A stretch of 64,000 nt of DNA from Pseudomonadota bacterium (GTDB taxonomy: Bacteria > Desulfobacterota > Binatia > Binatales > Binataceae). The position numbers and the translations under genes are program-made. Location of the stretch: NCBI GenBank assembly GCA_021325355.1, contig JAJPHI010000018.1, forward strand, positions 62,001 through 126,000. The letters run 5' to 3'. Below, in pieces: positions 27,609 to 41,482 of the stretch (position 1 is the stretch's first letter; every line of letters begins with the position of its first letter). The notes beneath the pieces are model-generated. The model was not told the DNA's origin and did no database searches. It saw only the letters and a list, made by a program, of their open reading frames with translations.

Positions 27609-29065
27609 GAACGGCCATGAGCGGTCGCGCCTTGAAGTTCGGGGTTATCGTCGCGCTGGCGCTCGGGGCGGCGCCGCCGACGAGCCGCGGCGCCGCCGAG
27701 CGGGCGCCGATTGAGCTCACGCCGGCGCGCCGGCAGTTGATCGGCGTGACCTTCGCCACGGTCGAACGTCGCGCGGTCAGCCGGCGGATCACGACCACCG
27801 GCAACGTGGAGCCCGACGAGCAACTGCAAGCGGTCGTGGAGCCGCGCTTCAGCGGATGGATTCAGCAGGTATACGCGAATCAGACCTTCCAGCGCGTGCG
27901 TCGAGGCGAGCCGCTGTTCACCGTCTATAGTCCTGACCTGGCCAGCACGGAGCGGGAGTTCGCGCTGCTGCGGCGGGCAGAGGAAGGCGTGGCGAACAGT
28001 TCCGTCGAGGGGGTCGCGGCGGGCGCGGATTCGCTGACGCGGGCGGCGGCGGCGCGGCTCACGCTGATGGGCGTGCCGGCGGCGGAAGTGGCGCGGCTCG
28101 AGCGCGGCGGACCGCCGCGCGACGTGCTGACGATCGTGGCGCCGGCCTCGGGCTACGTGGTCGAGCGCAACGCGCTGCCGAACCTGTACGTGCAGCCCGG
28201 TACGAGGCTCTACACGATCACGGATTTTTCGACGGTCTGGGTCTACGCGGCGGTTTTCCAGAACGATCTGGGGGTGATCCGGCCGGGCGATCGCGCTGAG
28301 TTCGCGGTCGATGCCTATCCCGGGACGAGTTTTCGGGGCCGCGTCGATTTCATCGGGCCCGCGATCGACACGGCGACGCGGACGGCGCGGGTGCGGATCG
28401 CCTTGAATAATTCGGCGGGACGGCTCAAGCCCGGGATGTACGGGCGTGTGACGCTGCATGCGCCGCTGGGCGAGCAGACCGTGATTCCCGCCGGCGGCGT
28501 GCTGCGCACCGGGACCCGGGAGGTCGCATTCGTCGATCGCGGCGGCGGCTACCTGGTGCCGACGGACGTGGTGATCGGCCCGCGCGTCGGCGCCGACCTG
28601 GTGGTGCTGAGGGGTCTCCGTCCGGGGCAACGAATCGTCGCGTCGGCCAACTTCCTGATCGATTCGGAGAGCCAACTGCAGGCGGCGACGGGCAGTTTCG
28701 CGCCGGCGCCCGCGGGGGTGAGCGCCGCGGCGCCGCCGGCGCCATCGGCCGGCCTCGAAGTGGTCACGACGCCGAATCCGCCGGCGCGGGGCCGGAACCG
28801 GCTGCGCGTCATTCTGAAGGACGCCGCCGGTCGCGGGATTACCGGCGCGACGGTGACGGTTACGTTCGCCATGGCGGCGATGCCGGCGATGGGCATGGCG
28901 GCGATGCGCGAGGCGGCGCGGCTCAACGATCAGGGGGCGGGCGTTTATGAAGGCGAGGTGACGCTGGCGAGCGGCGGCACCTGGCAGGTGACGGCGGTGG
29001 CCGCCCGGGATGGCAGGATTCTCGCGAGCCGGCAGTTCAATCTGTCGGCGACGGGCGGGATGTGA
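27605..29065 (+). CDS. RND periplasmic adaptor, CusB type, with C-terminal YtkA/FixH-like domain
   Basis: 486 residues. A signal peptide of about 30 residues precedes the barrel-sandwich and beta-barrel core: GNVEPDEQLQAVVEPRFSGW, YSPDLASTEREFALLRRAEE, TIVAPASGYVVERNALPN and GGGYLVPTDVVIGPRVGADL. After a Pro/Ala linker (about 355-375) a C-terminal beta domain begins with VTTPNPPARGRNRLRVILKD and contains a Met-rich segment, FAMAAMPAMGMAAM. That resembles YtkA-like metal-binding domains fused to some copper adaptors. It bridges the TolC channel and RND pump and probably delivers the metal. Coupled to its neighbours by short overlaps. Confidence 0.88.
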   Translation: MRTAMSGRALKFGVIVALALGAAPPTSRGAAERAPIELTPARRQLIGVTFATVERRAVSRRITTTGNVEPDEQLQAVVEPRFSGWIQQVYANQTFQRVRRGEPLFTVYSPDLASTEREFALLRRAEEGVANSSVEGVAAGADSLTRAAAARLTLMGVPAAEVARLERGGPPRDVLTIVAPASGYVVERNALPNLYVQPGTRLYTITDFSTVWVYAAVFQNDLGVIRPGDRAEFAVDAYPGTSFRGRVDFIGPAIDTATRTARVRIALNNSAGRLKPGMYGRVTLHAPLGEQTVIPAGGVLRTGTREVAFVDRGGGYLVPTDVVIGPRVGADLVVLRGLRPGQRIVASANFLIDSESQLQAATGSFAPAPAGVSAAAPPAPSAGLEVVTTPNPPARGRNRLRVILKDAAGRGITGATVTVTFAMAAMPAMGMAAMREAARLNDQGAGVYEGEVTLASGGTWQVTAVAARDGRILASRQFNLSATGGM

Positions 29066-29076
29066 GGAGGCGCGCC

Positions 29077-32000
29077 GTGATCGAACGCACTATCGACTGG
29101 TGCAACGAAAAGCGCTTCCTCGTGCTGCTCGGGGTGATGGCGCTCGTGCTCGCCGGCATCTGGTCGCTGGCGCGCATCCCGCTCGACGCGCTGCCGGATC
29201 TGTCGGATGTTCAGGTGATAATCCATACGCAGTGGATGGGGCAGCCGCCGAACCTGATCGAAGATCAGGTGACCTACCCGATCGTGACGACGATGCTGGC
29301 GGCGCCGCGGGTCAAGGCCGTGCGGGCCGAGACCATGCCCAACGATTCCTACGTCTTCGTGGTGTTCGAGGACGGCACCGATCTCTACTGGGCGCGCAGC
29401 CGCGTGCTCGAGTATCTGCAGCAGCTCGGCGGCGAGCTGCCCGCGGGCGTGACCCCGGTACTCGGTCCGGATGCGACCGGCGCGGGCTGGGTCTTCGAGT
29501 ACGTGGTGGTCGATCGCAGTCACCGCCACGACCTCAGCGAGTTGCGAAGCCTGCAGGACTGGCGCATCCGCTACGCGCTCGAGACCGTGCCCGGGGTGGC
29601 GGAGGTCGCCACGATCGGCGGTTTCGTCAGGCAGTACCAGGTCAGGCTCGATCCCAATCGGCTGCTCGCGCTGGGGATCCCGCTGCGGACGGTGATCGAG
29701 CGGATCCAGGCGGGCAACCGCGAAGTCGGCGGGCGGGTGATCGAAATGTCGGCGGCGTCCTACAACGTGATCGGACTTGGCTACATCAAGTCGGTAACCG
29801 ACCTGGAGAATATCCCGGTCGCCGACCACGACGGCGTGCCGGTGCTGATACGCGACCTCGGCGTGGTGAGCCTCGGGCCGGACCTGCGCGAGGGGGTGGC
29901 GGAGTGGAACGGTGTCGGGGAGGCGGTCGGCGGGATCGTGGTGATGCGCTACGGGCAGAACGCGCTCACGGTGATCGACGGGGTGAAGCGCCGGATCGCG
30001 GAATTGCGCAAGAGCCTGCCGCCGGGGGTCGAAATTATCCCCGGCTACGACCGCGCGGGCCTCATCCGGGGGTCGATTCATACGCTGCAGCGGGATCTGC
30101 TCGAGGAGGCGATCATCGTGAGTCTCGTGATAATCGTCTTCCTGTTTCATTTCCGCTCCGCCCTGATTCCGATCCTGGTGCTGCCGCTGGCGGTGCTGGC
30201 GACCTTTATCCCGATGTACTTCCTGCGGGTGAGCTCGAATATCATGTCGCTTGGCGGGCTCGCGCTTGCGATCGGCGTGCTGGTTGACGCGTCGATCGTG
30301 ATGGTCGAGAACGGCTATCGTCGGCTGGCGGCGGCGCAGGAGCTGGCGGCGCAGCGCGGCGCGCCGGTGCCGGAGGCGGCGCGGCGGCGGATCCTGCTCG
30401 ACGCGGCCAAACAGGTCGGGCGGCCGCTCTTCTTCTCGCTGGTGATCATCGTGGTGTCGTTTCTGCCGGTGTTCCTGCTGGAGGCGCAGGAGGGGCGGAT
30501 GTTCCGGCCGCTGGCGGCGACCAAGACCTTCGCGATCACGCTGTCGTCGATCCTGGCGATTACGGTGGTTCCGGTGCTGATGCTGCTGTTAATCCGCGGA
30601 CGGCTCGGCGGCGAGGAACGCAATCCCCTCAATCGGCTGTTTCAGGCGGCGTATCTGCCGGTGCTCGGCTGGTGCCTGCGGCATCGGCGAAGCACGATCG
30701 CGATCAATGTGCTGTTCCTGCTGATCACTCTACCTGTGGCGTCGCGGCTGGGGAGCCAGTTCATGCCGCCGCTGTACGAGGGGGCGGCGCTGTATATGCC
30801 GACGGCGCTGCCGGGAATCTCGATCACCGCGGCGCGCGATCTGCTGCAGAAGCAGGATCGGATAATCCGGACGTTTCCCGAGGTGGCGAGCGTCTTCGGC
30901 ACGGTCGGGCGCTCGAACAGCGCGACCGACAATGCGCCGCTCGACATGTATGACACGACGATCATGCTCAAGCCGCGCCGCGCCTGGCGGCGCGGGCTGA
31001 GCTACGCGCAGTTGATCGCGGAGATGGACGCGAAGCTCGCCTTCCCGGGCCTCGCCAATTCGTGGACGATGCCGGTCGCGAACCGGCTCGACATGGAGCT
31101 GACCGGTATCAAGACGCCGGTGGGGTTGAAAATCCAGGGGCCGTCACTGACCGGGATCGAGCGTCTCGGCAGCCGGATCGAGAAAATCCTCGCGGCGGTT
31201 CCGGGCACGCGGGGCGTGTTTGCGGAAAGAGTGGCAGAGGGTTTTTACCTCGATATCGACGTCAGGCGCGCGGTCGCGGCGCAGTACGGTCTCGGCGTGG
31301 GGGACGTGCAGGATGCCGTCAGTTTCGCAATCGGCGGCGAGAATATCGGGACCGCGATCGCGGGTCGCGCGCGCTATCCGATAAATGTGCGCTACCTGCA
31401 GGACTATCGCGACGATCTCGACGCGCTCAGGCGGGTGCTCGTCGCGACGCCGTCGGGCGCGCAGGTTCCCCTGGGCGAGGTCGCGCGGCTCGCGATCGCT
31501 TCGGGGCCCGCGATGATCCGCGACGAAGACGCGCAGTTGACGGGCTACGTGTACGTGGATCTGACGGGGTCGGACTATGGCGGCTATGTGCGGCGGGCGC
31601 AGGCGGCGCTGGATCGGCAATTGCGCCTGCCGCCCGGCTATGCGCTCAGGTGGTCCGGCGAGTACGCCTCGCAACTGCGGGCGCGCCAGCGTCTGACCAT
31701 CATACTGCCGGTGGTCTTCCTCGCGATCTTCGTGCTCCTCTACATTTTGTTTCAATCGCTAGCCGAGGCGGCCGTGCTGATTTTCCCGACGCTCTATGCG
31801 CTGACGGGCGGCGTGATCGCACAGGCTCTGCTGGGGTTCAATTTCAGCGTCGCGGTCTGGGTGGGTTATATCGCTTTGTTCGGCATCGCGGTCGAAACCG
31901 GGGTGGTGATGGTGATCTATCTGCACGAGGCGCTCGAACGGCGGCAGGCCGGCGGACCCTTAAGCGCCGCCGCGATCGAAGCGGCGACGCTCGAGGGCGC

Positions 32001-32217
32001 GGTGCAGCGGCTGCGGCCCAAGCTGATGACGGTGGCGGTGGTGATGCTGAGCCTCGCGCCGATTCTGTGGGAATCCGGGATCGGCGCGGACGTGATGCAG
32101 CCGATCGCGGCGCCGATCGTCGGCGGCATGATAACGTCGACCGTCCATGTGCTGATCCTGGTGCCGGTGTTCTTCGCGATGCTGAAGGAGCGGGCGCTGC
32201 GCGCCGCCTCCGCCTGA
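29077..32217 (+). CDS. cusA: heavy-metal RND efflux pump, CusA-like (Cu/Ag)
   Basis: 1046 residues from GTG 29077, chosen because AGGAGG lies 6 bases upstream (29065-29070) and the protein then begins VIERTIDWCNEKRFLVLL, as in CusA. Inner-membrane proton-driven pump with 12 expected membrane helices. The three CusA metal-relay methionines are present in ALYMPTALPGIS, APLDMYDTTIMLKP and NRLDMELTGIKTPVG, which supports monovalent Cu/Ag specificity over Zn/Co. Other blocks are PNLIEDQVTYPIVTTMLAAP and GVLVDASIVMVENGYRR. The last 65 coding bases before the stop recur at 34.5 kb. Confidence 0.94.
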   Translation: MIERTIDWCNEKRFLVLLGVMALVLAGIWSLARIPLDALPDLSDVQVIIHTQWMGQPPNLIEDQVTYPIVTTMLAAPRVKAVRAETMPNDSYVFVVFEDGTDLYWARSRVLEYLQQLGGELPAGVTPVLGPDATGAGWVFEYVVVDRSHRHDLSELRSLQDWRIRYALETVPGVAEVATIGGFVRQYQVRLDPNRLLALGIPLRTVIERIQAGNREVGGRVIEMSAASYNVIGLGYIKSVTDLENIPVADHDGVPVLIRDLGVVSLGPDLREGVAEWNGVGEAVGGIVVMRYGQNALTVIDGVKRRIAELRKSLPPGVEIIPGYDRAGLIRGSIHTLQRDLLEEAIIVSLVIIVFLFHFRSALIPILVLPLAVLATFIPMYFLRVSSNIMSLGGLALAIGVLVDASIVMVENGYRRLAAAQELAAQRGAPVPEAARRRILLDAAKQVGRPLFFSLVIIVVSFLPVFLLEAQEGRMFRPLAATKTFAITLSSILAITVVPVLMLLLIRGRLGGEERNPLNRLFQAAYLPVLGWCLRHRRSTIAINVLFLLITLPVASRLGSQFMPPLYEGAALYMPTALPGISITAARDLLQKQDRIIRTFPEVASVFGTVGRSNSATDNAPLDMYDTTIMLKPRRAWRRGLSYAQLIAEMDAKLAFPGLANSWTMPVANRLDMELTGIKTPVGLKIQGPSLTGIERLGSRIEKILAAVPGTRGVFAERVAEGFYLDIDVRRAVAAQYGLGVGDVQDAVSFAIGGENIGTAIAGRARYPINVRYLQDYRDDLDALRRVLVATPSGAQVPLGEVARLAIASGPAMIRDEDAQLTGYVYVDLTGSDYGGYVRRAQAALDRQLRLPPGYALRWSGEYASQLRARQRLTIILPVVFLAIFVLLYILFQSLAEAAVLIFPTLYALTGGVIAQALLGFNFSVAVWVGYIALFGIAVETGVVMVIYLHEALERRQAGGPLSAAAIEAATLEGAVQRLRPKLMTVAVVMLSLAPILWESGIGADVMQPIAAPIVGGMITSTVHVLILVPVFFAMLKERALRAASA

Positions 32218-32393
32218 GGCGGGGCGCAGTCGGGAAGGCGTAAGTGGCGTTGGCAGGCGGAGGGCGCGGCGCGCGGAGGCAAAATCAAAGCGCCTCTGGC
32301 GAGGTCGCCGGTTCGGCGGATTGGAAAAATGGGGCGGCGGTGGCGCCTTCAAGGCATGATCCGCTGGCGGCTCATCGGCCGCGCCGCGCGCCG

Positions 32394-33191
32394 CTACCAG
32401 GTACGAGCGGCGACGGCGGCGCCAGCGAGGATGAGGGCGACGCCCGCCCCGCGCGCGAGCCAAAGCCCGCCCGGCAGAATCCTTTCGGCCAGGACGAGCG
32501 CGGCGAGCCCGGCGCACCACGCGGCGTTCATCGCGCCGACGCCCAACAAAACCAGCATCAGAAGCCAGCAGCATGCGACGCAATAGAGCCCGTGACGACC
32601 GCCCATCACGAGCGCGCCGCGGGTTCCTTCGCGCCATTCCGCGAGCAGAAAACCTACCGGGGTACGGCAATGCCTGAGGCAGGCCGCTTTCAGCGGTGAA
32701 AACTGAAAGGCGCCGGCAGTGAGCATCAGCACTGCGGCCAGGGCAGGGCGCGGCAGCGTTCCGCTCGCGCTGCGCATCGTTGCGGCATGAAGGCCCCACT
32801 CGGCGAGCGCCGCCAGCAAGCTGAAGCCGATCCAGACCATCAGATAGCCGCTGAGGAAGGCGCCGGTCGTCGCCCAGGGCGCGCGGGTGCCGCCGTAACG
32901 GTGGCGCTCGAGGCCGGCGAAGGCCAGCACCATCGGCGATGCGGTCGGTGTCATCATCGCGATCATCATCACGCTCCACATCAGCGCGATCATGGTGAGA
33001 TCGGCGGGTCCCCAGCGGGCCACGGAGGCGCCGCACCATCCCGCGCCGGCACCCATCAGCGTATCGTCGAGCCGGCGGCACTCGGCGGCGGTGAACAATG
33101 TCAACGCGGCCGAGGCGCCGAGGACGATCCAGCGATCGCGGCGCAGAAGGGCGATGATCGGATCGTTCGCCTGGCGGGACGCCTCAATCAT
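32394..33191 (-). CDS. DUF2182 multi-spanning membrane protein
   Basis: 265 residues with about six membrane segments. Family features: MWSVMMIAMMTPTASPMVLA in the first helix pair, KAACLRHCRTPVGFL, and GLYCVACCWLLMLVL, that is, Met- and Cys/His-rich membrane positions expected to bind a metal. DUF2182 proteins are annotated as predicted metal-binding integral membrane proteins and often accompany DUF1326. It overlaps the DUF1326 gene by 8 bases and is the last gene of the tetR-DUF1326-DUF2182 operon. Function unknown; metal handling is inferred. Confidence 0.82.
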   Translation of the reverse strand: MIEASRQANDPIIALLRRDRWIVLGASAALTLFTAAECRRLDDTLMGAGAGWCGASVARWGPADLTMIALMWSVMMIAMMTPTASPMVLAFAGLERHRYGGTRAPWATTGAFLSGYLMVWIGFSLLAALAEWGLHAATMRSASGTLPRPALAAVLMLTAGAFQFSPLKAACLRHCRTPVGFLLAEWREGTRGALVMGGRHGLYCVACCWLLMLVLLGVGAMNAAWCAGLAALVLAERILPGGLWLARGAGVALILAGAAVAARTW

Positions 33192-33786
33192 TGCGGTAGT
33201 GGAAGGCCGAATAGAAGCCGTTCTTTTTCGAGATTTCCCAACTATAGCCGTGATCCTGGTAGCGAAGCCCTTCTGAGCGGGCGGCGGTCGCGGGAAAGCC
33301 GGGCGCGATAGCCAGCGGATGACCGCTGACGGTTACCTCGCCCGCCGGCGTCGCGATCGCCTGGATGGTGGCGTCGGCCACCTTGCCGACGCGAACCGCG
33401 CGTCGCTTACCCTCGGCCCGATACTCGATGGGCACGTTGGCGACGCCGAGCAGTTCACCGATATGTTGGGCGATTCGGCCCGGATGACCGCCCGCCTGTC
33501 CAGTGAAGATTTGCGTCAGGGCTTCCCGCTGCGGCGCCGCGGCGGACTCGTCAAGGTACAGCGCCGCCCGCCACTTGACTTCCGCCATGTGGCCGGGACT
33601 GTGAACCGCGAGGACGACGTTGAGGCCGTCGAGGGAGATTTGAGCAAAGCGGCCTTCGTCAATGTGCCAGGCGACCAGCACGGTGCATTCGCCCGCCGTG
33701 GGTGGACTCAGGAAGACGCAGGGGCAGGCGGTCTCGCAGTTGCAGGTTTCGAAGTACGAGCCTTTGACACTCCAGGGTTCAGACAT
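33184..33786 (-). CDS. DUF1326 domain protein
   Basis: 200 residues, no signal peptide. The conserved N-terminal cysteine motif is FETCNCETACPCVFLSPP, followed by TVLVAWHIDEGRF and the VPIEYRAEGKRRAVRVGKVA strand. DUF1326 proteins are uncharacterised and commonly lie beside DUF2182 genes. The CNC and CPC motifs suggest metal or thiol chemistry. It overlaps tetR and DUF2182 by 8 bases each, so the three are made together. Confidence 0.82.
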   Translation of the reverse strand: MSEPWSVKGSYFETCNCETACPCVFLSPPTAGECTVLVAWHIDEGRFAQISLDGLNVVLAVHSPGHMAEVKWRAALYLDESAAAPQREALTQIFTGQAGGHPGRIAQHIGELLGVANVPIEYRAEGKRRAVRVGKVADATIQAIATPAGEVTVSGHPLAIAPGFPATAARSEGLRYQDHGYSWEISKKNGFYSAFHYRND

Positions 33787-34432
33787 GGCTACCCTCCTTG
33801 ATTGACTTGCGCGGTGAAGCGGTTCGCTGCCGGTCTCGGTTCTTCCTGATGGTTAGCGATTTCGTGATGCGCGCCTCGATGAGGCCGCGCAGGCAGCGGA
33901 GACCGGCGGCGATGCGCGGCGGGTCGTCGTAGGCGCGCGCCATAATCACGGCACCCTCGATCGCTATGAGCGTTTGCATCGCGAGCTCGTCGGCTTCCTG
34001 ATGGTCGCGCGCGATGGGCTTGAAGATCGGCGACAGCGTGCTCACCAGCTCGGTGAACATCGCGGCGACCCGCCGCCGGATGGTCTGACTCGACTCAGCG
34101 AACTCGCAGGCGAAGTTTCCCATCAGGCAGCCGTCGCGCCAGAGCTCGGGTCCAATCATCTCGAGATGATCAAAAAAGCCGCGCAGGCGCCGGTGCGGGT
34201 CGGCGATCTCGAGGTAGGCGCCGTCGGCGAGGCGCGCGCGGCCACGCTCGTAGAAGCCGTTCAGGACCGCGAGCGCAACCTCCTCCTTGGTTTTAAAAAA
34301 GTGGTAGAAGCTCCCCTTGGTAACTCTCGCCCTGGAACAAATGTCGTCGATCGACGTGGCCGCGTAGCCGTGCCGGAGCATCAGCTCGCCGGCCGTCTCC
34401 AGGATGCGCGTTCGTGATCGACCCGCTGCCAT
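33779..34432 (-). CDS. TetR/AcrR family regulator
   Basis: 217 residues. The N-terminal HTH is clear: RTRILETAGELMLRHGYAAT, SIDDICSRARVTKGSFYHFF, KTKEEVALAVL. The C-terminal domain is of the type with a conserved DGCLMGNFACEFAE block, seen in TetR_C regulators related to AcuR/NemR-like proteins. Start ATG 34430-34432; a GTG three codons upstream is possible. The 26-base operator in its own promoter implies negative autoregulation of the whole operon. The inducer is unknown. Confidence 0.9.
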   Translation of the reverse strand: MAAGRSRTRILETAGELMLRHGYAATSIDDICSRARVTKGSFYHFFKTKEEVALAVLNGFYERGRARLADGAYLEIADPHRRLRGFFDHLEMIGPELWRDGCLMGNFACEFAESSQTIRRRVAAMFTELVSTLSPIFKPIARDHQEADELAMQTLIAIEGAVIMARAYDDPPRIAAGLRCLRGLIEARITKSLTIRKNRDRQRTASPRKSIKEGSHV

Positions 34433-34442
34433 ATCGCCCACC

Positions 34443-34876: not shown

Positions 34877-36142
34877 ATGGCGCAAGCAGGGGCGATCGAA
34901 GCGTCGGCAGGGAGCGGCGCGGCGCAACGCAGCGTGTCCGCGCAGAGCCGCCGCGCGCTCGACTGGCTCAATTTTTTCAAGGCCGACGCGCAGACCACGG
35001 TCGGGCCGTATCTGGCGATTTTTCTGCTCGCCGCGCGCCATTGGAACGTCGCGCGAATCGGTATGGTGATGGCATTGCCGGGTCTGGTCGCGGTGCTGAC
35101 ACAGACGCCGGCCGGCGCGCTGGTCGATTGGCTGGCGCAAAAGCGCGCGCTCGTGGCCGGCGCCGCGGTGGGGCTCGGCGCGGGATGCCTGCTGCTGATC
35201 GGGTGCACCAGCGTGGCGGCGGTGGCGATGGCGCAGGGGTTAATCGCGCTCGCGACCGTCGTGATGCCGCCGGCGATCGCGGCTATCAGCGTCGGCCTGG
35301 TGGGTCCGGCCGCCTTCGCCCGGCGGATGGGGCGCAATGAAGCGTACAGTCACGCCGGCGCCGTCTTTGCGGCGCTCCTGGCCGGCGCTATCGCCTACTC
35401 GTTCGCGACGGTCGGACTGTTCTATTTCGCCGCGGCGATGAGCGTGGCCGGCGCGATCGCGGCCTGGTGTATCCGCCCTGAGGAGATCGACCCGGCGCTC
35501 GCGCGCGAGGCGGCGCTGGGGCGCGGGGGCCGGCCGGAGATTGTCGCGATCGGCGGTCTGCTGCGCGACTCGCGAATCGCGATTTTTGCCGCCGCCGTGA
35601 CGCTTTTTCATCTGGCGAACGCGGCGATGCTGCCGCTGGTCGGCGAGATGCTGTCGGCCGGCCGCCCGACCCTGGCAGCGCCGTACATGTCCGCCTGTAT
35701 TGTCATCGCGCAGCTCGTGATGGCGCCGGTCGCGGTGGTCGCGGGACGGCTCGCCGATGTCTGGGGACGAAAGCCGGTTTTCCTGCTGGCGCTCGCGGCT
35801 CTCGCGATGCGCGGAGTGCTGTTCGCGATCACGCGGAAGCCCTATCTGGTGGTGCCGATCCAGATCCTCGACGGCGTCGGCGCGGGTATCTTCGGCGTGG
35901 TTGCGGTGATAATCGTCGCCGATCTGGCGCGCCATACGGGGCGCTTCAATCTGCTGCAGGGCGCGATGAACACCTGCGTTGCGGTGGGGGCGGCGCTGAG
36001 TAATCTTGGCGCCGGCGTCGTCGCCAACCGCTACGGCTATGACCGCGGCTTCCTGCTGCTGAGCGCGTGCGCGCTGGGCGCGCTCGGGTTCTTTTGGCTG
36101 GCGATGCCCGAGACCGCGGAGAGGCGGCCGCCGCCGGCTTGA
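34877..36142 (+). CDS. MFS transporter
   Basis: 421 residues, 12 predicted membrane helices. The N-terminal block LDWLNFFKADAQTTVGPYLA resembles a subgroup of uncharacterised MFS exporters found near metal genes. The central loop is short, and RLADVWGRKPVFLLALAALA matches the MFS loop motif (GRLADxxGRKP) in the second half. The substrate is unknown. It precedes the candidate leader RNA and TonB receptor on the same strand, with a 360-base gap, so it is probably transcribed separately. Confidence 0.8.
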   Translation: MAQAGAIEASAGSGAAQRSVSAQSRRALDWLNFFKADAQTTVGPYLAIFLLAARHWNVARIGMVMALPGLVAVLTQTPAGALVDWLAQKRALVAGAAVGLGAGCLLLIGCTSVAAVAMAQGLIALATVVMPPAIAAISVGLVGPAAFARRMGRNEAYSHAGAVFAALLAGAIAYSFATVGLFYFAAAMSVAGAIAAWCIRPEEIDPALAREAALGRGGRPEIVAIGGLLRDSRIAIFAAAVTLFHLANAAMLPLVGEMLSAGRPTLAAPYMSACIVIAQLVMAPVAVVAGRLADVWGRKPVFLLALAALAMRGVLFAITRKPYLVVPIQILDGVGAGIFGVVAVIIVADLARHTGRFNLLQGAMNTCVAVGAALSNLGAGVVANRYGYDRGFLLLSACALGALGFFWLAMPETAERRPPPA

Positions 36143-36271
36143 AACCGCCGGGCGTCGCCCGGGGCGGATCGCGCGACCATCACGGCGCCATCGGGTTCGT
36201 GAAAATTCGCTGACAGGAAAATTCGCCGATCCTGATGGATCGCGCGCGCGCTTTGAGCTATACGGTGTGAG
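36143..36271. other. intergenic region after the MFS gene
   Basis: Directly after the MFS stop CCGGG at 36149-36153 and CCCGG at 36159-36163 could form a short hairpin with a 5-base loop; no T run follows. The rest is unremarkable up to the structured leader. A promoter for the TonB receptor operon is expected here but not identified with confidence. Confidence 0.3.
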
Positions 36272-36387
36272 CGAAAGCCACCGGCGTATCCGATGGCGGC
36301 GTGCCTTGTCCGGCAGGCCGTAGGACGCTCCCGCTGCAATGGCGGCGGGATTTTGAATCTCGCTTAGGAGCGGAGCGATGGCTTTCG
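36272..36387 (+). ncRNA. candidate structured leader RNA (four-way junction) upstream of the TonB receptor
   Basis: A closing stem pairs CGAAAGCCA (36272-36280) with TGGCTTTCG (36379-36387), 9 perfect pairs. Three hairpins lie inside. CGGC-G-TGCC (36297-36305) pairs with GGCA-G-GCCG (36312-36320), with one G-G mismatch. TCCCGCTGC (36329-36337) pairs with GCGGCGGGA (36342-36350), with one wobble and loop AATG. CGCT (36361-36364) pairs with AGCG (36369-36372), loop TAGG. The start codon is 115 bases downstream. I could not match it to cobalamin, TPP, SAM, Moco, fluoride or c-di-GMP riboswitch consensus from memory. Confidence 0.5.
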
Positions 36388-36502
36388 GATAGCGCTGACC
36401 AACGGTCGATTCTCAGCACAAGTCGTTTCTGTTGATCCCAGCTTGAGCGGTTGCGGGCGCCGGCGTCAGGGCGCGCCGAACCGCAGGAGGTGAGATGGAT
36501 CC

Positions 36503-38665
36503 ATGGTCAAGCGAACCGGCTGGTTCTGCCTGGTCGTGGCGGTGTGTCTCGATGCGCTCGCGGTCGGCGCCGAACCGCCGCAACCAGCGACCTCGGCGAC
36601 GGCCGCGGCGGTGCCGTCGCAACCCGCGAAGAGGCGCTCCGCCCGCCGCAAACGGCCCCTTCGGTTAAAGGAACTGGTGATTTACGGCGCGGCGCCGGAG
36701 CCCGACAAGGCGGAGCTCTCGGCGAAGCGGTCGGCGAATCCGGCATCGGTGACGGTCGCCAGCTATCCGGCCGAGGTGAAGCGCAGCACGACGACGTACG
36801 GCGAGCTGCTGCGGCCGCTGACCGGCGTCACGGTGGACAACTACGGGCAGGGCGGCGTCGGCTACGGCGTGGCGCTGCGCGGCTTCGATGAGCTCGAACA
36901 CGGACGCGACGTGGCGACCTTCGTCGATGGCGTGCCGCAGAACCAGACCTCGTCGATCCAGGTGAACGGCTACACCGATCTGAACGATTTGAATCCGGAA
37001 CTGGTGCGGCAGGTCACGCTGACGCGCGGGCCGTTCGATGTGCGCGCGGGCGACTTCAATATCGGGGGTTCGGTCAATTTCGACACGCTCGCCGCGCCGC
37101 CGTCGGGGCTGACGCTGAGCGGCGGTCAGTTCGGGACGGTGCACGGCGACGCCGTCTATGCCGGGGGTATCGGGCCGGCGCACGGGTTTCTGTCACTGCT
37201 CGCCGACGACACGCAGGGCTATCGTCACAACGAGAATCTGCTGCGTCTCAACACCTTCGACAAGGTGACGGTGCCGTTGTTCGAGGGCGTGGGCGCGTTC
37301 CGCTTCCAGTTCTTCAACGACACCTTCGGCGCGCCGGGATATATCAATCGCGCGCTGGTCGAGGCGGGCGCGCTCAGTCCGACGGCGGCGGTGAATCCGA
37401 CGGACGGCGGCAATCGCACGGAGGAAAACGTGGTGTTCAACTATCGCGAACCCGCCGCCGAGGAGCCGCTGGCGGTGAATCTGTACGCGATCCACAACGT
37501 GTTCGATCGCTATGCGACCTTCAGCACGATCCCGATAAATCCGCTGGCGCCGGGACAGGCGCTGAGCGCGGATCGGCGCTATACGCTCGGCGGCAACGGG
37601 GAGAAGTTCTGGCGGCTGCGGCTGCCGGCGGGGATCGCGGCGGACCTGCTGGCGGGGGGCGGGCTGCGTTCGGATATCGCCAACGCCAAGCAGTACGACA
37701 CGATCGCGCGGGTCCCGACGCAGCAGACGGTCAACGTCAATTTCAATATCCACAATCCGTTTGTTTATCTGCAGACGGACCTCAAGCCGTTTGCGTGGCT
37801 GAAACTGACAGGCGGAGTTCGCTACGATGAGTTTTTCTTCGATATCCACGATTTCATCACGCCGGCGCGGGTCGCTCCGGACACCGGCGCAGCCGAGCCG
37901 AAGGGAGGTATCGTGGTGACGCCGCTCGCCGGCGCGGATCTGTTCGCCAATATCGGCGAGGGGATCCGTTCGCCGAGCGCGGTGTTCGATTTGCCGCTGA
38001 ATCCGGCGCTGGGGGTGACGACCGTGACCAGCGAAGAGGCCGGCGTGCAGTACAATTCGCCGGCGGGGCCGTGGCATTTCCTGGGCTCGGTATACACCAC
38101 GCGGCTGACCAACGAGATCCAGGAAAACCCGCCGCCCGAGCCGCCGACCAATCTGGGGCCGTCGCGCCGCGAAGGCTTCGACAGCGAGGGCGGCTACCGC
38201 GTTTGGGAAACGCCCGGCGGTGTCACCTGCGCGGTGCTGGCCAGCTACAGCGCGCTGCGCGCGCGGCTGGTCGGGAATCAGCACGGGCAGGGGTCGGACG
38301 TGCCGAACACGCCGAAGTGGTCGGCGAAATACGGCGGCGAACTGCGCTGGCCACTGTTCGGCGCGCAGGCGAGCCGGACCATCTTCCTCTATGTCAATCA
38401 GCAGTTCGTCGGCGAAAGCGAACTCGATCCGGCGGCTCATCAGCGCGCCGGCTCCTATTCGCGCTTCAATCTCGACGCCTGGTACAGCGACGCGCACTGG
38501 GCGGGGGCGAGCGCGTTCGTGGAAATAACCGCCTATCCGTTCGGCCGCTTCAACGAGACCGCGGTCGAGTTCAACAGCACGACGGTCGGGATCGCGCCGA
38601 AGTCGCCGGTGACGCTGCTCGGCGGGGTCCATCTGCCGCTCAACTTTCTGCCCGGACGATTCTGA
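36503..38665 (+). CDS. TonB-dependent outer membrane receptor
   Basis: 720 residues. The signal peptide ends near AVGAEP, then a basic Pro/Ala spacer, a plug domain (VTVASYPAEVKRSTTTYGEL, GVALRGFDELEHGRDVATFV, DGVPQNQTSSIQVNGYTDLN) and a 22-strand-type barrel ending in the terminal phenylalanine (NFLPGRF), as needed for outer-membrane assembly. It imports a ligand using energy from the TonB encoded two genes later. AGGAGG at 36485-36490 precedes ATG 36503 by 12 bases, slightly long. The ligand is unknown; the DUF4198 neighbour suggests a metal or metal chelate. Confidence 0.9.
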   Translation: MVKRTGWFCLVVAVCLDALAVGAEPPQPATSATAAAVPSQPAKRRSARRKRPLRLKELVIYGAAPEPDKAELSAKRSANPASVTVASYPAEVKRSTTTYGELLRPLTGVTVDNYGQGGVGYGVALRGFDELEHGRDVATFVDGVPQNQTSSIQVNGYTDLNDLNPELVRQVTLTRGPFDVRAGDFNIGGSVNFDTLAAPPSGLTLSGGQFGTVHGDAVYAGGIGPAHGFLSLLADDTQGYRHNENLLRLNTFDKVTVPLFEGVGAFRFQFFNDTFGAPGYINRALVEAGALSPTAAVNPTDGGNRTEENVVFNYREPAAEEPLAVNLYAIHNVFDRYATFSTIPINPLAPGQALSADRRYTLGGNGEKFWRLRLPAGIAADLLAGGGLRSDIANAKQYDTIARVPTQQTVNVNFNIHNPFVYLQTDLKPFAWLKLTGGVRYDEFFFDIHDFITPARVAPDTGAAEPKGGIVVTPLAGADLFANIGEGIRSPSAVFDLPLNPALGVTTVTSEEAGVQYNSPAGPWHFLGSVYTTRLTNEIQENPPPEPPTNLGPSRREGFDSEGGYRVWETPGGVTCAVLASYSALRARLVGNQHGQGSDVPNTPKWSAKYGGELRWPLFGAQASRTIFLYVNQQFVGESELDPAAHQRAGSYSRFNLDAWYSDAHWAGASAFVEITAYPFGRFNETAVEFNSTTVGIAPKSPVTLLGGVHLPLNFLPGRF

Positions 38666-38679
38666 AAGGAGCCGCTGCG

Positions 38680-39450
38680 ATGAAGGTGCTTGCCGCCGTT
38701 ATGGCGATGCTGACGCTCGGCGCGGGAGCGGCGCGCGCGCACGATCTGGTGCTGCTTCCCGAGGGTCGTGAGCGCGTGACGGTGAAGTTCGGCCATCCGC
38801 AGGAATATGCCGCACCCGATGCGGAAAAACTGATCGAACTCATGGGCTACTTCGCCGGCGGCGGTGCGCCGGTGTCGCTGCTGAGCGCCGTCGGCGGGGC
38901 GACGGCGGATCACGTGACCGTCGACACGGGTCGCTATGGCAAGGGGCATGAGCTGCTGCTCGTCTGGGGCGAATACGACAACGGCTACTTCGCCAGCGAC
39001 GCCGCCGGGCGGTACTTCAACACCAGCAAGCTCCATCTGCCGGCGGCGCGGGACAGCGGGGCTTTTTTCAAATTCGCGAAGGCGATTTTTCCCGCGGCGG
39101 AGGCGGGCGGCGAGTTTTCCCGTGTGCTCGGCGAGGAGCTCGAGATAATTCCGCAGAGCGATCCGTTCAAGACCGCGCCGGGCGCGGAACTGCCGGTGAA
39201 AGTGCTCTATCGCGGCAAGCCGCTCGCGGGAGTGGGCGTCGAGATCGGCGACGGGCAGATTAGAATCGCGGAGGCGGCGATCCCGCGCTACCAGACGAAC
39301 CCGGCGGGGATCGCGCGCGTGCCGATCGGCAAGGCGGGACTGAAGATAATCGCCGTCGATTATCGCACGCCGCCGCGGTTTCCCCAGTTATCCGACCACG
39401 ATGATTACGGCGCGACCCTGAGTTTTGTGTTGAGTCCGGCGCGTCAATGA
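38680..39450 (+). CDS. DUF4198 periplasmic protein
   Basis: 256 residues with a signal peptide (MKVLAAVMAMLTLGAGAARA) and mature start HDLVLLPEGRERVTVKFGHP, the usual beginning of DUF4198/NikK-like proteins, where the N-terminal His can bind metal. The C-terminal half has the second beta domain (PVKVLYRGKPLAGVGVEIG) and ends in DHDDYGATLSFVL. Family members accompany Ni/Co uptake systems and TonB receptors. It lies 14 bases after the receptor gene, with AAAGGA as ribosome binding site, and overlaps tonB as ATGA. Confidence 0.83.
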   Translation: MKVLAAVMAMLTLGAGAARAHDLVLLPEGRERVTVKFGHPQEYAAPDAEKLIELMGYFAGGGAPVSLLSAVGGATADHVTVDTGRYGKGHELLLVWGEYDNGYFASDAAGRYFNTSKLHLPAARDSGAFFKFAKAIFPAAEAGGEFSRVLGEELEIIPQSDPFKTAPGAELPVKVLYRGKPLAGVGVEIGDGQIRIAEAAIPRYQTNPAGIARVPIGKAGLKIIAVDYRTPPRFPQLSDHDDYGATLSFVLSPARQ

Positions 39451-40262
39451 GCGCCGGCCCCCGGGCGTTGTCGTCGCGCGCGCACAAAGCCGGGGCAGAT
39501 GCGGGCGAGCGGTCGGGCGCGTCGTGGGGTCGGATGGGCGTGGCGATGCTGGCCGCGTTGGGCTTCCATCTGATCGGTCTGGGCTGTTTGAGGGAGTTCG
39601 GTGGGGGCCGGCATGGCCTGCGGCCGCGCGCGGAGCAGTACGTCTATGTGACGCTCGCAAGCTCCGGCGACGCCGGTAAATCGCGTCCCGCGCTGCCGCG
39701 CACGTCGCCGGTCTCGAGCGCGGCTCTGCGACATGCGGCGAAAGCGCTGCGCCGAATGATCACGCGGAAGGCGGCGGTCGCGACAGGATCGAGGTTGGCG
39801 GCGCCGTCGCCGGCGCTCGCCACGCGCGAAGCCGCGGCGAGATCGGCGCCGCGAGCCGCGACTGATCGTCCTGCGGGCGAATCCGGGCCGGCGACGGCGC
39901 GGGTGGGCGCGGGCGGCGATAGCGAAAGCGGCGGTAGCCGGAGCAGCGCGGCAGAGCAGGGTCCCTTCGCGGCGGATCAGGTGGATGAGCCACCGGTGCC
40001 GATCGCCACGCCCTTGCCGCAGTACCCGGCGCGCGCCCGGGAGCTCGGGATCGAGGGTCGCGTGGTGCTGCGAATAATCGTGGACCGTCGCGGCGCGGTC
40101 GAGCCCGACGTGAAGGTCGTCGAGAGTATCCCGCTGCTGGAGGCGGCGGCGGTGGCAGCGGTGCGAGGATGGCGCTTCCGGCCGGGCCGGGGGCGCGACG
40201 GCGCGCCGGTGCGCGTGTGGCTCGAAGTCCCGCTGCGCTTCGCGCTGACCCCTGGCGAGTAA
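39447..40262 (+). CDS. tonB: TonB energy transducer
   Basis: 271 residues: one N-terminal membrane helix (about 30-48, RMGVAMLAALGFHLIGLGCL), a long Ala/Arg/Ser-rich periplasmic linker (about 65-175), and a C-terminal TonB domain from PLPQYPARARELGIEGRVVL to FRPGRGRDGAPVRVWLEVPL. It transmits proton-motive-force energy to the TonB receptor. exbB and exbD are not in the window. The linker has few Pro-Lys repeats, unlike classical TonB. It is a dedicated copy, coupled to its receptor operon by an ATGA overlap. Confidence 0.88.
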   Translation: MSAGPRALSSRAHKAGADAGERSGASWGRMGVAMLAALGFHLIGLGCLREFGGGRHGLRPRAEQYVYVTLASSGDAGKSRPALPRTSPVSSAALRHAAKALRRMITRKAAVATGSRLAAPSPALATREAAARSAPRAATDRPAGESGPATARVGAGGDSESGGSRSSAAEQGPFAADQVDEPPVPIATPLPQYPARARELGIEGRVVLRIIVDRRGAVEPDVKVVESIPLLEAAAVAAVRGWRFRPGRGRDGAPVRVWLEVPLRFALTPGE

Positions 40263-40351: not shown

Positions 40352-41482
40352 ATGGAACGACCGAAGTTCAGCGAGCGTATCCGGGCGATCCGCGCCGGGC
40401 GCGGCCTGACGCAGGCCGAACTGGCGGCGGAGGCCGGTATCTCACGACAGGCGCTGGCCGCGATCGAGCGCGGCGCGTATCTGCCGAACGTCGCGGTGGG
40501 GATGCGGCTCGCGCGGGTCGTCGGGCTCACGGTCGAGGAGCTGTTCGGCGCGGACGAAGACGACGACGCGCAGGAAATTGCGGCGCGCTGGAAGAACACG
40601 CTCGGCGGCGGCGTGGATCCGAAGCGGGTGGCGCTGGCGCGGGTGGGCGGCCGGATGGTGGCGCTGGCCCTGCCGCGCGCCCATCTGACGCTGCCGGTCT
40701 CGAGCGGGCTCTGCGCGCATCCGGCGCGGACGGCGGCGCGGGTGGCGACGCGGCTGCGGGGCCAGGAAATCGCCGCCACGCTGCTCATCGCGGGATGCGA
40801 TCCGGCGGTGGCGATCGTGATCGGGTGGCTCGCGCGGACCGGATCGAAGGTGAATGCCGTCGCCCTGCCGTGTTCGAGCGGCCGGGCGCTGGCGGCGGTG
40901 GCGGCGGAGTCGGTGCACGTCGCCGGGGTCCATCTGCGTGATCCGCAAAGCGGCGATTACAACCTGGCGCCGGTGCGCAAGGCGGTCGGCCGGAGCCGGA
41001 TCCGCTTAATCAATTTCGCCTGTTGGGAAGTGGGTTTTGCGGTGGCGCCGGGGAATCCGCGCAGTATCCGGAGCTTTTGCGATCTGGGTCGGTCGAACGT
41101 GCGGATTATCAATCGGGAGCCGGGCGCCGGCGCGCGGCAGGTGCTGGACGAGGAGCTGGCCGCGGCGGGTCTGCGGGCGCGGCAGATTCGCGGTTATGAG
41201 CAGGAAGCCGCGGGCCATCTCGAGGTGGCGGCGGCGATTTGCGCCGGTGAGGCCGATACGGGCGTGACGATTCGGCTGGCGGCCGAGGCCTATGGACTCG
41301 ACTTCGTGCCGTGGCGCGAAGAGCGCTACGACCTCGCCATCCTGGAAACCGAGCTCGAATCGGCGCCGGTCAGCCGGCTGATGGATGCGCTGACGTCGCA
41401 GCGTCTGGCGCGCGAAGTATCGCAGCTCTGCGGCTATGACACGACGCAGATGGGCACGGAGCTCGCCCGCATCAACTGCTAG
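40352..41482 (+). CDS. XRE-type regulator with periplasmic-binding-protein-like domain
   Basis: 376 residues. N-terminal XRE HTH (FSERIRAIRAGRGLTQAELA, AEAGISRQALAAIERGAYLP), then a PBP-like domain similar to the substrate-binding module of molybdopterin-related regulators: TLLIAGCDPAVAIVIGWLAR, RLINFACWEVGFAVAPGNPR, INREPGAGARQVLDEELAAA and YDLAILETELESAPV. It is probably a ligand-sensing cytoplasmic repressor or activator; molybdate or tungstate is one possibility by family. No good Shine-Dalgarno sequence precedes ATG 40352. It lies between the TonB operon and the aldehyde dehydrogenases, which it may control. Confidence 0.82.
   Translation: MERPKFSERIRAIRAGRGLTQAELAAEAGISRQALAAIERGAYLPNVAVGMRLARVVGLTVEELFGADEDDDAQEIAARWKNTLGGGVDPKRVALARVGGRMVALALPRAHLTLPVSSGLCAHPARTAARVATRLRGQEIAATLLIAGCDPAVAIVIGWLARTGSKVNAVALPCSSGRALAAVAAESVHVAGVHLRDPQSGDYNLAPVRKAVGRSRIRLINFACWEVGFAVAPGNPRSIRSFCDLGRSNVRIINREPGAGARQVLDEELAAAGLRARQIRGYEQEAAGHLEVAAAICAGEADTGVTIRLAAEAYGLDFVPWREERYDLAILETELESAPVSRLMDALTSQRLAREVSQLCGYDTTQMGTELARINC

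Follow-up and report, generated by a model that had tools for sequence, protein, structure and literature searches.

The element at positions 36272-36387 of the window (the whole stretch of 64,000 nucleotides that was analysed) appears to be a member of a small conserved family of cis-acting 5′ leader RNAs that is apparently uncatalogued. The family may act as a translational two-state switch, riboswitch-like, that controls a TonB receptor gene, whereas the window would have lost that receptor and kept the RNA as a relic or in a new use; we give this reading a probability of about 0.5. A leader RNA candidate had been proposed here by a sequence-only reading, and comparison with relatives upheld it as a conserved structured leader linked to TonB receptors. 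If true, this would be an orphan riboswitch-like class whose core is compact and whose translational switch is simple, and its targets (TonB receptors, one His-rich protein and possibly the DUF4198 operon) would offer a route to the receptors' substrate.

In the window, CGAAAGCCA (36272-36280) and TGGCTTTCG (36379-36387) pair perfectly over nine positions, and the predicted fold is this closing stem (P1) enclosing three stem-loops, at -59.4 kcal/mol. Stem and hairpins were thus present as first described, and none of 200 dinucleotide shuffles folded as well (mean -46.2, sd 3.6, z -3.65). When flanks were included (36230-36510), z was only -1.40, 14 of 200 shuffles were as good and the closing stem dropped out of the minimum fold. 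The fold by itself is weak evidence, and the case is carried by conservation. The low z with flanks would suit a chance fold without function; against this, sequence, position, promoter spacing and pairing are conserved in seven genera, which makes such an explanation hardly credible. The distances given earlier were also borne out: 360 bases separate the end of an MFS gene (36142) from the start of the receptor (36503), and 115 of them lie between element and receptor. The features are collected in Table 1.

Table 1. Features of the leader RNA and its surroundings. Positions are those of the window unless a locus (L) is named.
Feature	Position	Strand	Basis or remark
Weak promoter-like site TGGATC-N17-TATACG	36236..36264	+	near the TTGA-N19-TA position of relatives; fails the TTGA-N19-TA test
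P1, 5′ strand of closing stem (CGAAAGCCA)	36272..36280	+	P1 pairs in 94.6% of cells, seven sequences
Core, first block (AAGCCACCGGCGTATCCGATGGCGGC)	36275..36300	+	mean identity 92%, 21/26 columns invariant
P2	36284..36328	+	GCG/CGC, 36284-36286 with 36326-36328
P2 inner pairs	CC/GG 36290-36291 with 36323-36324; CGGC/GCCG 36297-36300 with 36317-36320	+	
P2 tip	inside CGGC/GCCG	+	hairpin of variable sequence
Core, second block (GCCGTAGGACGC)	36317..36328	+	11/12 columns invariant
P3 hairpin, 9 pairs, terminator-like, TTTT behind	36329..36350	+	by eye unrelated to the same place in relatives
Shine-Dalgarno-like AGGAG, loop of small third hairpin	36366..36370	+	sequence and fold
Start codon in P1, four-codon frame MAFG and stop	36378..36392	+	same ATG opens receptor or frameshifted remnant in five relatives
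P1, 3′ strand (TGGCTTTCG)	36379..36387	+	pairing with CGAAAGCCA
Probable decayed remnant, signal-peptide coding start of lost receptor	36387..36484	+	alignment to five receptor starts
TonB-dependent receptor now downstream, Plug and barrel	36503..38665	+	Pfam; NCBIfam gives heme/hemoglobin receptor models as best hits, below cut-offs
DUF4198 protein	38674..39450	+	Pfam; His predicted at the mature N-terminus (ARA|HDLV, inferred cleavage site)
TonB	39447..40262	+	Pfam
His-rich HWH reading frames	L103:8046-8453; L109:9448-9900	-	these two tested, neither with a Pfam or NCBIfam match
His-rich HWH reading frames, further	upstream parts of L115, L116, L117, L118, L120, L121		

Within the window's bacterial family, 7 of 41 genomes, each from a different genus, carry the RNA (G000, G008, G010, G011, G021, G032 and G039), with a common layout of AAGCCACYNGCGTNNCYGATGGCGGC, a variable hairpin and then GCCGTAGGRCGC. 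A DNA search of the 41 genomes recovered the element's 5′ half in G008, G011 and G021; G010 matched another part of the query, and this hit was set aside. Pattern search with up to three mismatches matched ten of the 41 genomes, seven being real after inspection, and G013, G017 and G028 (three mismatches each) were rejected on their surroundings. When the two-block pattern was loosened it hit 12 of 148 class genomes; besides the seven carriers these were G020, G026, G028, G088 and G128, none of which was accepted as a member. Covariance model R1 gave matches at E <= 1 in 28 of the 148 class genomes, the seven training loci first, then G004 at 7.8e-4 (30.2 bits), and the remainder at 0.017 or worse. 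The G004 match (L147:1501-1612) is intergenic, has ATGGC at its end and lies before a lipoprotein-like gene instead of a receptor; the locus is possibly an eighth, more diverged member. Model R2, run on 38 family genomes (a draw from which G004 was absent), gave matches at E <= 0.5 in 17: the same seven carriers, then G030 at 3.0e-4, with the remainder at 0.0175 or worse. The G030 match lies inside open reading frames and was not accepted.

No credible member outside the family was seen among the 148 class genomes. In the phylum, the exact pattern matched one of 395 genomes, that of the window, in a set holding only 7 family genomes and none of the other six carriers. One exact pattern, applied to a collection of 84,980 species (contigs of at least 3,000 bases), returned 59 stretches, and four were judged true on reading: L048, L058, L061 and L074, which correspond to G039, G021, G011 and G010 (contigs JAJZAG010000121.1 and JAKAVC010000089.1, labelled Deltaproteobacteria; JAJPIG010000022.1, Proteobacteria; JADBKU010000055.1, bacterium). 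This pattern found no further true member in the collection; most of the other 55 stretches looked, by eye, like codons of one protein (ATGVTDGG), presumably class II fructose-bisphosphatase. Viral contigs gave six matches, none with the second block, and the window's own genome gave no second copy, only short matches elsewhere (15 pieces of 14-24 bases, the best at E 0.06). Receptors 65-75% identical in G040, G024, G037, G036 and G001 stand without a recognisable RNA. In a fuzzy search of 24 other receptor loci, where contigs that end early (e.g. L122) were read partly inside the gene, the motif with at most four mismatches occurred only at that of G008; L124, with five mismatches, was not accepted. 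The family is small and, in the sets searched, restricted to one lineage, and diverged members may escape every search run (patterns, models and collection scan).

The conserved core consists of two blocks, AAGCCAC-YN-GCGT-NN-CY-GATGGCGGC and GCCGTAGG-R-CGC, and between them lies a short hairpin that varies in sequence and length and mostly keeps its pairing. Over the seven sequences 32 of 38 columns are invariant, 21 of 26 in the first block and 11 of 12 in the second (alignment A2, which was trimmed at the ATG and still gaps the 3′ end of G008; alignment A1 misplaces that end). Mean pairwise identity in the first block is 92%, versus 26% and 28% in two upstream 30-base blocks (ungapped), and only 28 of 198 fourfold-degenerate sites shared by five of the receptor genes are invariant. 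The core is thus under strong selection. It is not a conserved reading frame, since the spacing of the two blocks changes between loci by amounts not divisible by three, and a coding explanation was rejected on this ground.

Closing stem and first hairpin make up the conserved architecture; hairpins 2 and 3 are not common to the relatives, and by eye the sequence of hairpin 2 is unrelated to the corresponding stretch there. Because the stretch from the second block to the ATG varies in length and sequence, and the nine-pair hairpin of the window has no visible counterpart, the four-way junction of the sequence-only reading is a feature of the window and not of the family. The small hairpin around the Shine-Dalgarno (SD) sequence also belongs to the window copy and not to the relatives. 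A search for terminator-like hairpins found one, at 36329-36350, against a shuffle mean of 0.4. As in riboswitches generally, the leader is conserved ahead of a gene and some of its unpaired bases are invariant.

The core could also be a DNA operator, in which a repressor would bind GCCACCGGCGTATCCGATGGC, close behind the transcript start, and RNA folding would be secondary. This 21-base stretch is an imperfect palindrome (GCCACCGG / GCCATCGG; by eye 7/8 in the window and 5-6/8 in the others) and lies directly downstream of a promoter-like site. However, conservation is just as high in the second block, GCCGTAGGRCGC, beyond a loop of variable length and sequence that mostly keeps pairing, and the strand carrying the SD and start codon pairs with the core. 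An operator is quite improbable as the main explanation.

The promoter-like site is TTGA-N19-TA, found 32-38 bases upstream of the element in six of the seven loci, with the window as the exception. In 2000 shuffled sets it occurred at most once in register and at most twice anywhere in the 70 bases; the motif was chosen after viewing the sequences, so its significance is inflated, yet the difference is still large. From its sequence, the site would start the transcript near the first bases of the element. A consensus promoter scan of the window at 36100-36560 found no promoter. Upstream of the element in the window, a direct repeat GAAAATTCGC ... GAAAATTCGC is present at 36200-36227, possibly a regulator site.

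The 3′ strand of the closing stem contains a start codon, which had been missed in the earlier note. Across the loci this strand is ATGGCTTTC or a near variant, and in five of the seven its ATG opens a TonB receptor of the CarboxypepD type, one of them frameshifted. In G010, G011, G021 and G039 an intact receptor of about 790 residues begins there, 79-83% identical to that of G021, in which Pfam identified CarboxypepD_reg and the TonB barrel. In G032 the receptor is frameshifted, and the frame from the stem ATG stops after 40 residues. A receptor-like frame of 537 residues at the G032 locus (L107:7982-9595, minus strand) lies elsewhere than the ATG frame and has no barrel hit. In G008 the ATG opens a frame of 46 residues, with its stop and the start of a His-rich gene overlapping; after that gene comes a receptor that shares 59% identity with the one in G021. 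In the window the ATG opens MAFG and then a stop. P1 is retained through one- or two-sided changes in G039, G011, G032 and G008, with single-position breaks in G008 and G010, and 94.6% of cells pair over the seven sequences. Since the receptor begun by the stem ATG in five of seven loci is of another type than the one now downstream in the window, the window operon is probably not the original target.

The RNA could take up either of two folds, each of which excludes the other. Fold A would pair the 5′ strand AAAGCCAC-CCGCGU-nn-CC with the SD and AUG (GG-nn-GCGCGG-AUGGCUUU) and hide the ribosome site of the TonB receptor gene. Fold B would instead pair GCGU-nn-CC of that strand with the invariant UAGG-R-CGC, closing a hairpin with an internal loop (GAUG/A) and releasing the SD side. 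The balance would probably be shifted by a small ligand at the invariant internal loop, perhaps a metal, free or in a complex, that the receptor imports. RNAalifold on the seven sequences extended the closing stem, with columns 12-17 and 20-21 pairing with 103-112 and covering the SD. Two pairs with changes on both sides are columns 12-112 (C-G to U-A in G039) and columns 13-111 (C-G to G-C in the window, where a large part of the helix is gone). In the extended stem 92.0% of cells are paired, compared with 31-45% in slid controls, and 7 of 500 shuffles reach 92.0%. It has four double-changed pairs, a number equalled in 41 of 500 shuffles (seven sequences), so that the covariation is suggestive only. 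Conservation of the 3′ strand is also explicable by its constraint as SD and start codon. P1 together with fold B has two double-changed pairs (148 of 500 shuffles have as many). All cells of the fold-B pairs are paired, with one single one-sided change, and for want of variation fold B gives no covariation evidence.

Folding energies were compared locus by locus. Each of the four loci with an intact receptor has fold A as its minimum, 5.8-9.5 kcal/mol below forced fold B; in G008 the two are nearly balanced (1.9 kcal/mol), and G032 prefers a third fold, fold A not being its free fold. The window prefers fold B and keeps four of the eight extension pairs. When fold B was forced, the mean unpaired probability of the SD-AUG region rose from 0.30 to 0.50 in G010, 0.31 to 0.45 in G011, 0.20 to 0.34 in G039 and 0.38 to 0.40 in G021, only a modest opening in these intact-receptor loci, and P1 often stayed. 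In the window the order is reversed (0.58 with forced fold A versus 0.43 with fold B). Competition between the folds is plausible from the sequences, with a predicted release of the start site by fold B that is modest. In G010 and G011, GGCGCGG stands both upstream of and beside the ATG, with UCCGCGCC between, a further possible switch.

A protein or small RNA, not a metabolite or ion, might instead bind the leader and shift its folds, which would be translational control in trans. The strictly conserved internal-loop bases and an SD-hiding fold would suit any partner, and the narrow phylogenetic range in the sets searched fits this view. On the other hand, small-molecule riboswitches, those for cobalamin for instance, often control TonB receptors, and a partner in trans seems unlikely to us. 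The most specific form of the switch reading is a new riboswitch class in a little-known lineage, perhaps sensing nickel or another transition metal or a complex of one. In it the 5′ end of the message would cover the SD and AUG, GGRCGC would mimic the SD region, and the window copy would have been left behind or transplanted before the DUF4198 operon; put so specifically, the proposal seems to us unlikely.

The earlier remark that no familiar riboswitch consensus fitted the element held in a covariance search with Rfam 15, which gave no match over the whole window at the gathering threshold. At E up to 10, 418 bases gave two matches, of 14.4 and 16 bits against gathering scores of 49.5 and 49. 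The weaker, to anti-hemB RNA (RF02837; 36289-36358, E 0.88, gathering 49.5 bits), is at chance level. Three homologous loci gave no Rfam match on the element, and 20 loci gave none. The NiCo (czcD) riboswitch has a conserved four-way junction, and the window copy resembles it in being multi-branched and beside a metal-related operon; the element is, however, unmatched by its Rfam model, and the branched part is not conserved among homologues. The element is also like riboswitches that sequester the ribosome-binding site in being a TonB receptor 5′ leader with conserved unpaired bases and two predicted competing pairings, one of them over the SD and start codon. Cobalamin riboswitches of btuB-type TonB receptors are translational, with expression platforms of this sequestering type, but the element has no Rfam cobalamin match and the start codon itself lies here in the closing stem. 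Short strings like AAAGCC and ACCGAUGGC in the element also occur in the GEMM-I (c-di-GMP-I) riboswitch; their order and spacing differ, and no such Rfam hit was seen at E up to 10. The motif was not found described in the titles and abstract openings searched, which does not prove its absence from the literature.

In the window, the receptor originally under control of the RNA would have been lost, the RNA staying with a four-codon frame at its AUG before a different, DUF4198-containing TonB receptor operon, as a relic or in reuse. The 98 bases that follow the shared ATGGCTTTC are probably a decayed receptor start. Aligned to five receptor starts, 36387-36484 gave a summed score of 147, whereas 400 shuffles gave a mean of 99.8 and a maximum of 138.5, none as high; a control stretch was ordinary in the same test (325 of 400). 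The evidence is only moderate, since no single local alignment of the stretch to the receptor starts was significant and the shorter 36387-36450 was equalled by 19 of 400 shuffles.

The window copy could be dead, left with the decayed receptor start while the TonB operon downstream is controlled otherwise, a state compatible with a switch at the level of the family. The MAFG frame at the stem ATG, the alignment of the next 98 bases, the loss of half the pairs of the SD-covering extension and the lack of TTGA-N19-TA all point that way. So does the related operon of G034 (receptor 72% identical), at which the pattern search found no leader and none was seen in 701 bases around the start. Against it, the window retains P1 and almost all of the core, and since unconstrained sites in the family diverge fast, continued or recent selection on this copy is suggested. 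We hold a dead relic to be a serious possibility at somewhat less than even odds.

Pfam confirmed the operon proposed earlier, TonB receptor-DUF4198-TonB, and its receptor is of another type than the CarboxypepD-type receptors behind the RNA in the relatives. Of 18 receptor loci examined, eight have an upstream His-rich ORF of one family (HWH motif), seven of them with a CarboxypepD-type receptor (including G008) and one (G034) with the window type; the 18 left out the RNA-bearing loci other than G008, and the E-values, calculated without composition correction, are inflated. Both receptor types would thereby be linked to metals.

A 2025 paper (PMC12537917) reports that DUF4198 is secreted and binds nickel, that its N-terminal histidine is mostly conserved, and that TonB receptors and NikR_C regulators are among its neighbours. 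The DUF4198 protein of the window would have that histidine after signal cleavage at the inferred site (HDLVLLPEG...). Nickel is not certain, since the DUF4198 genes of Caulobacter are reported to be iron- and Fur-responsive (PMC3751524), and one such gene is tabulated in a zur mutant study (PMC4176598). The earlier idea of a metal-uptake operon as the target gains from the reported nickel binding (PMC12537917) and loses in that the operon is probably not the original target; it may for that reason say little directly about the ligand of the RNA.

Further genes lie around the element. Beside the MFS gene, window 29062-34441 holds PpoB2 (Pfam 'copper chaperone'), DUF1326, a TetR regulator and a large protein, by its look presumably an RND efflux pump. 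DUF1326 is also found near the RNA in G032 (L107:6723-7412). Downstream of the operon, window 40352-41482 encodes a protein with HTH and PBP-like domains, possibly a molybdate-type regulator.
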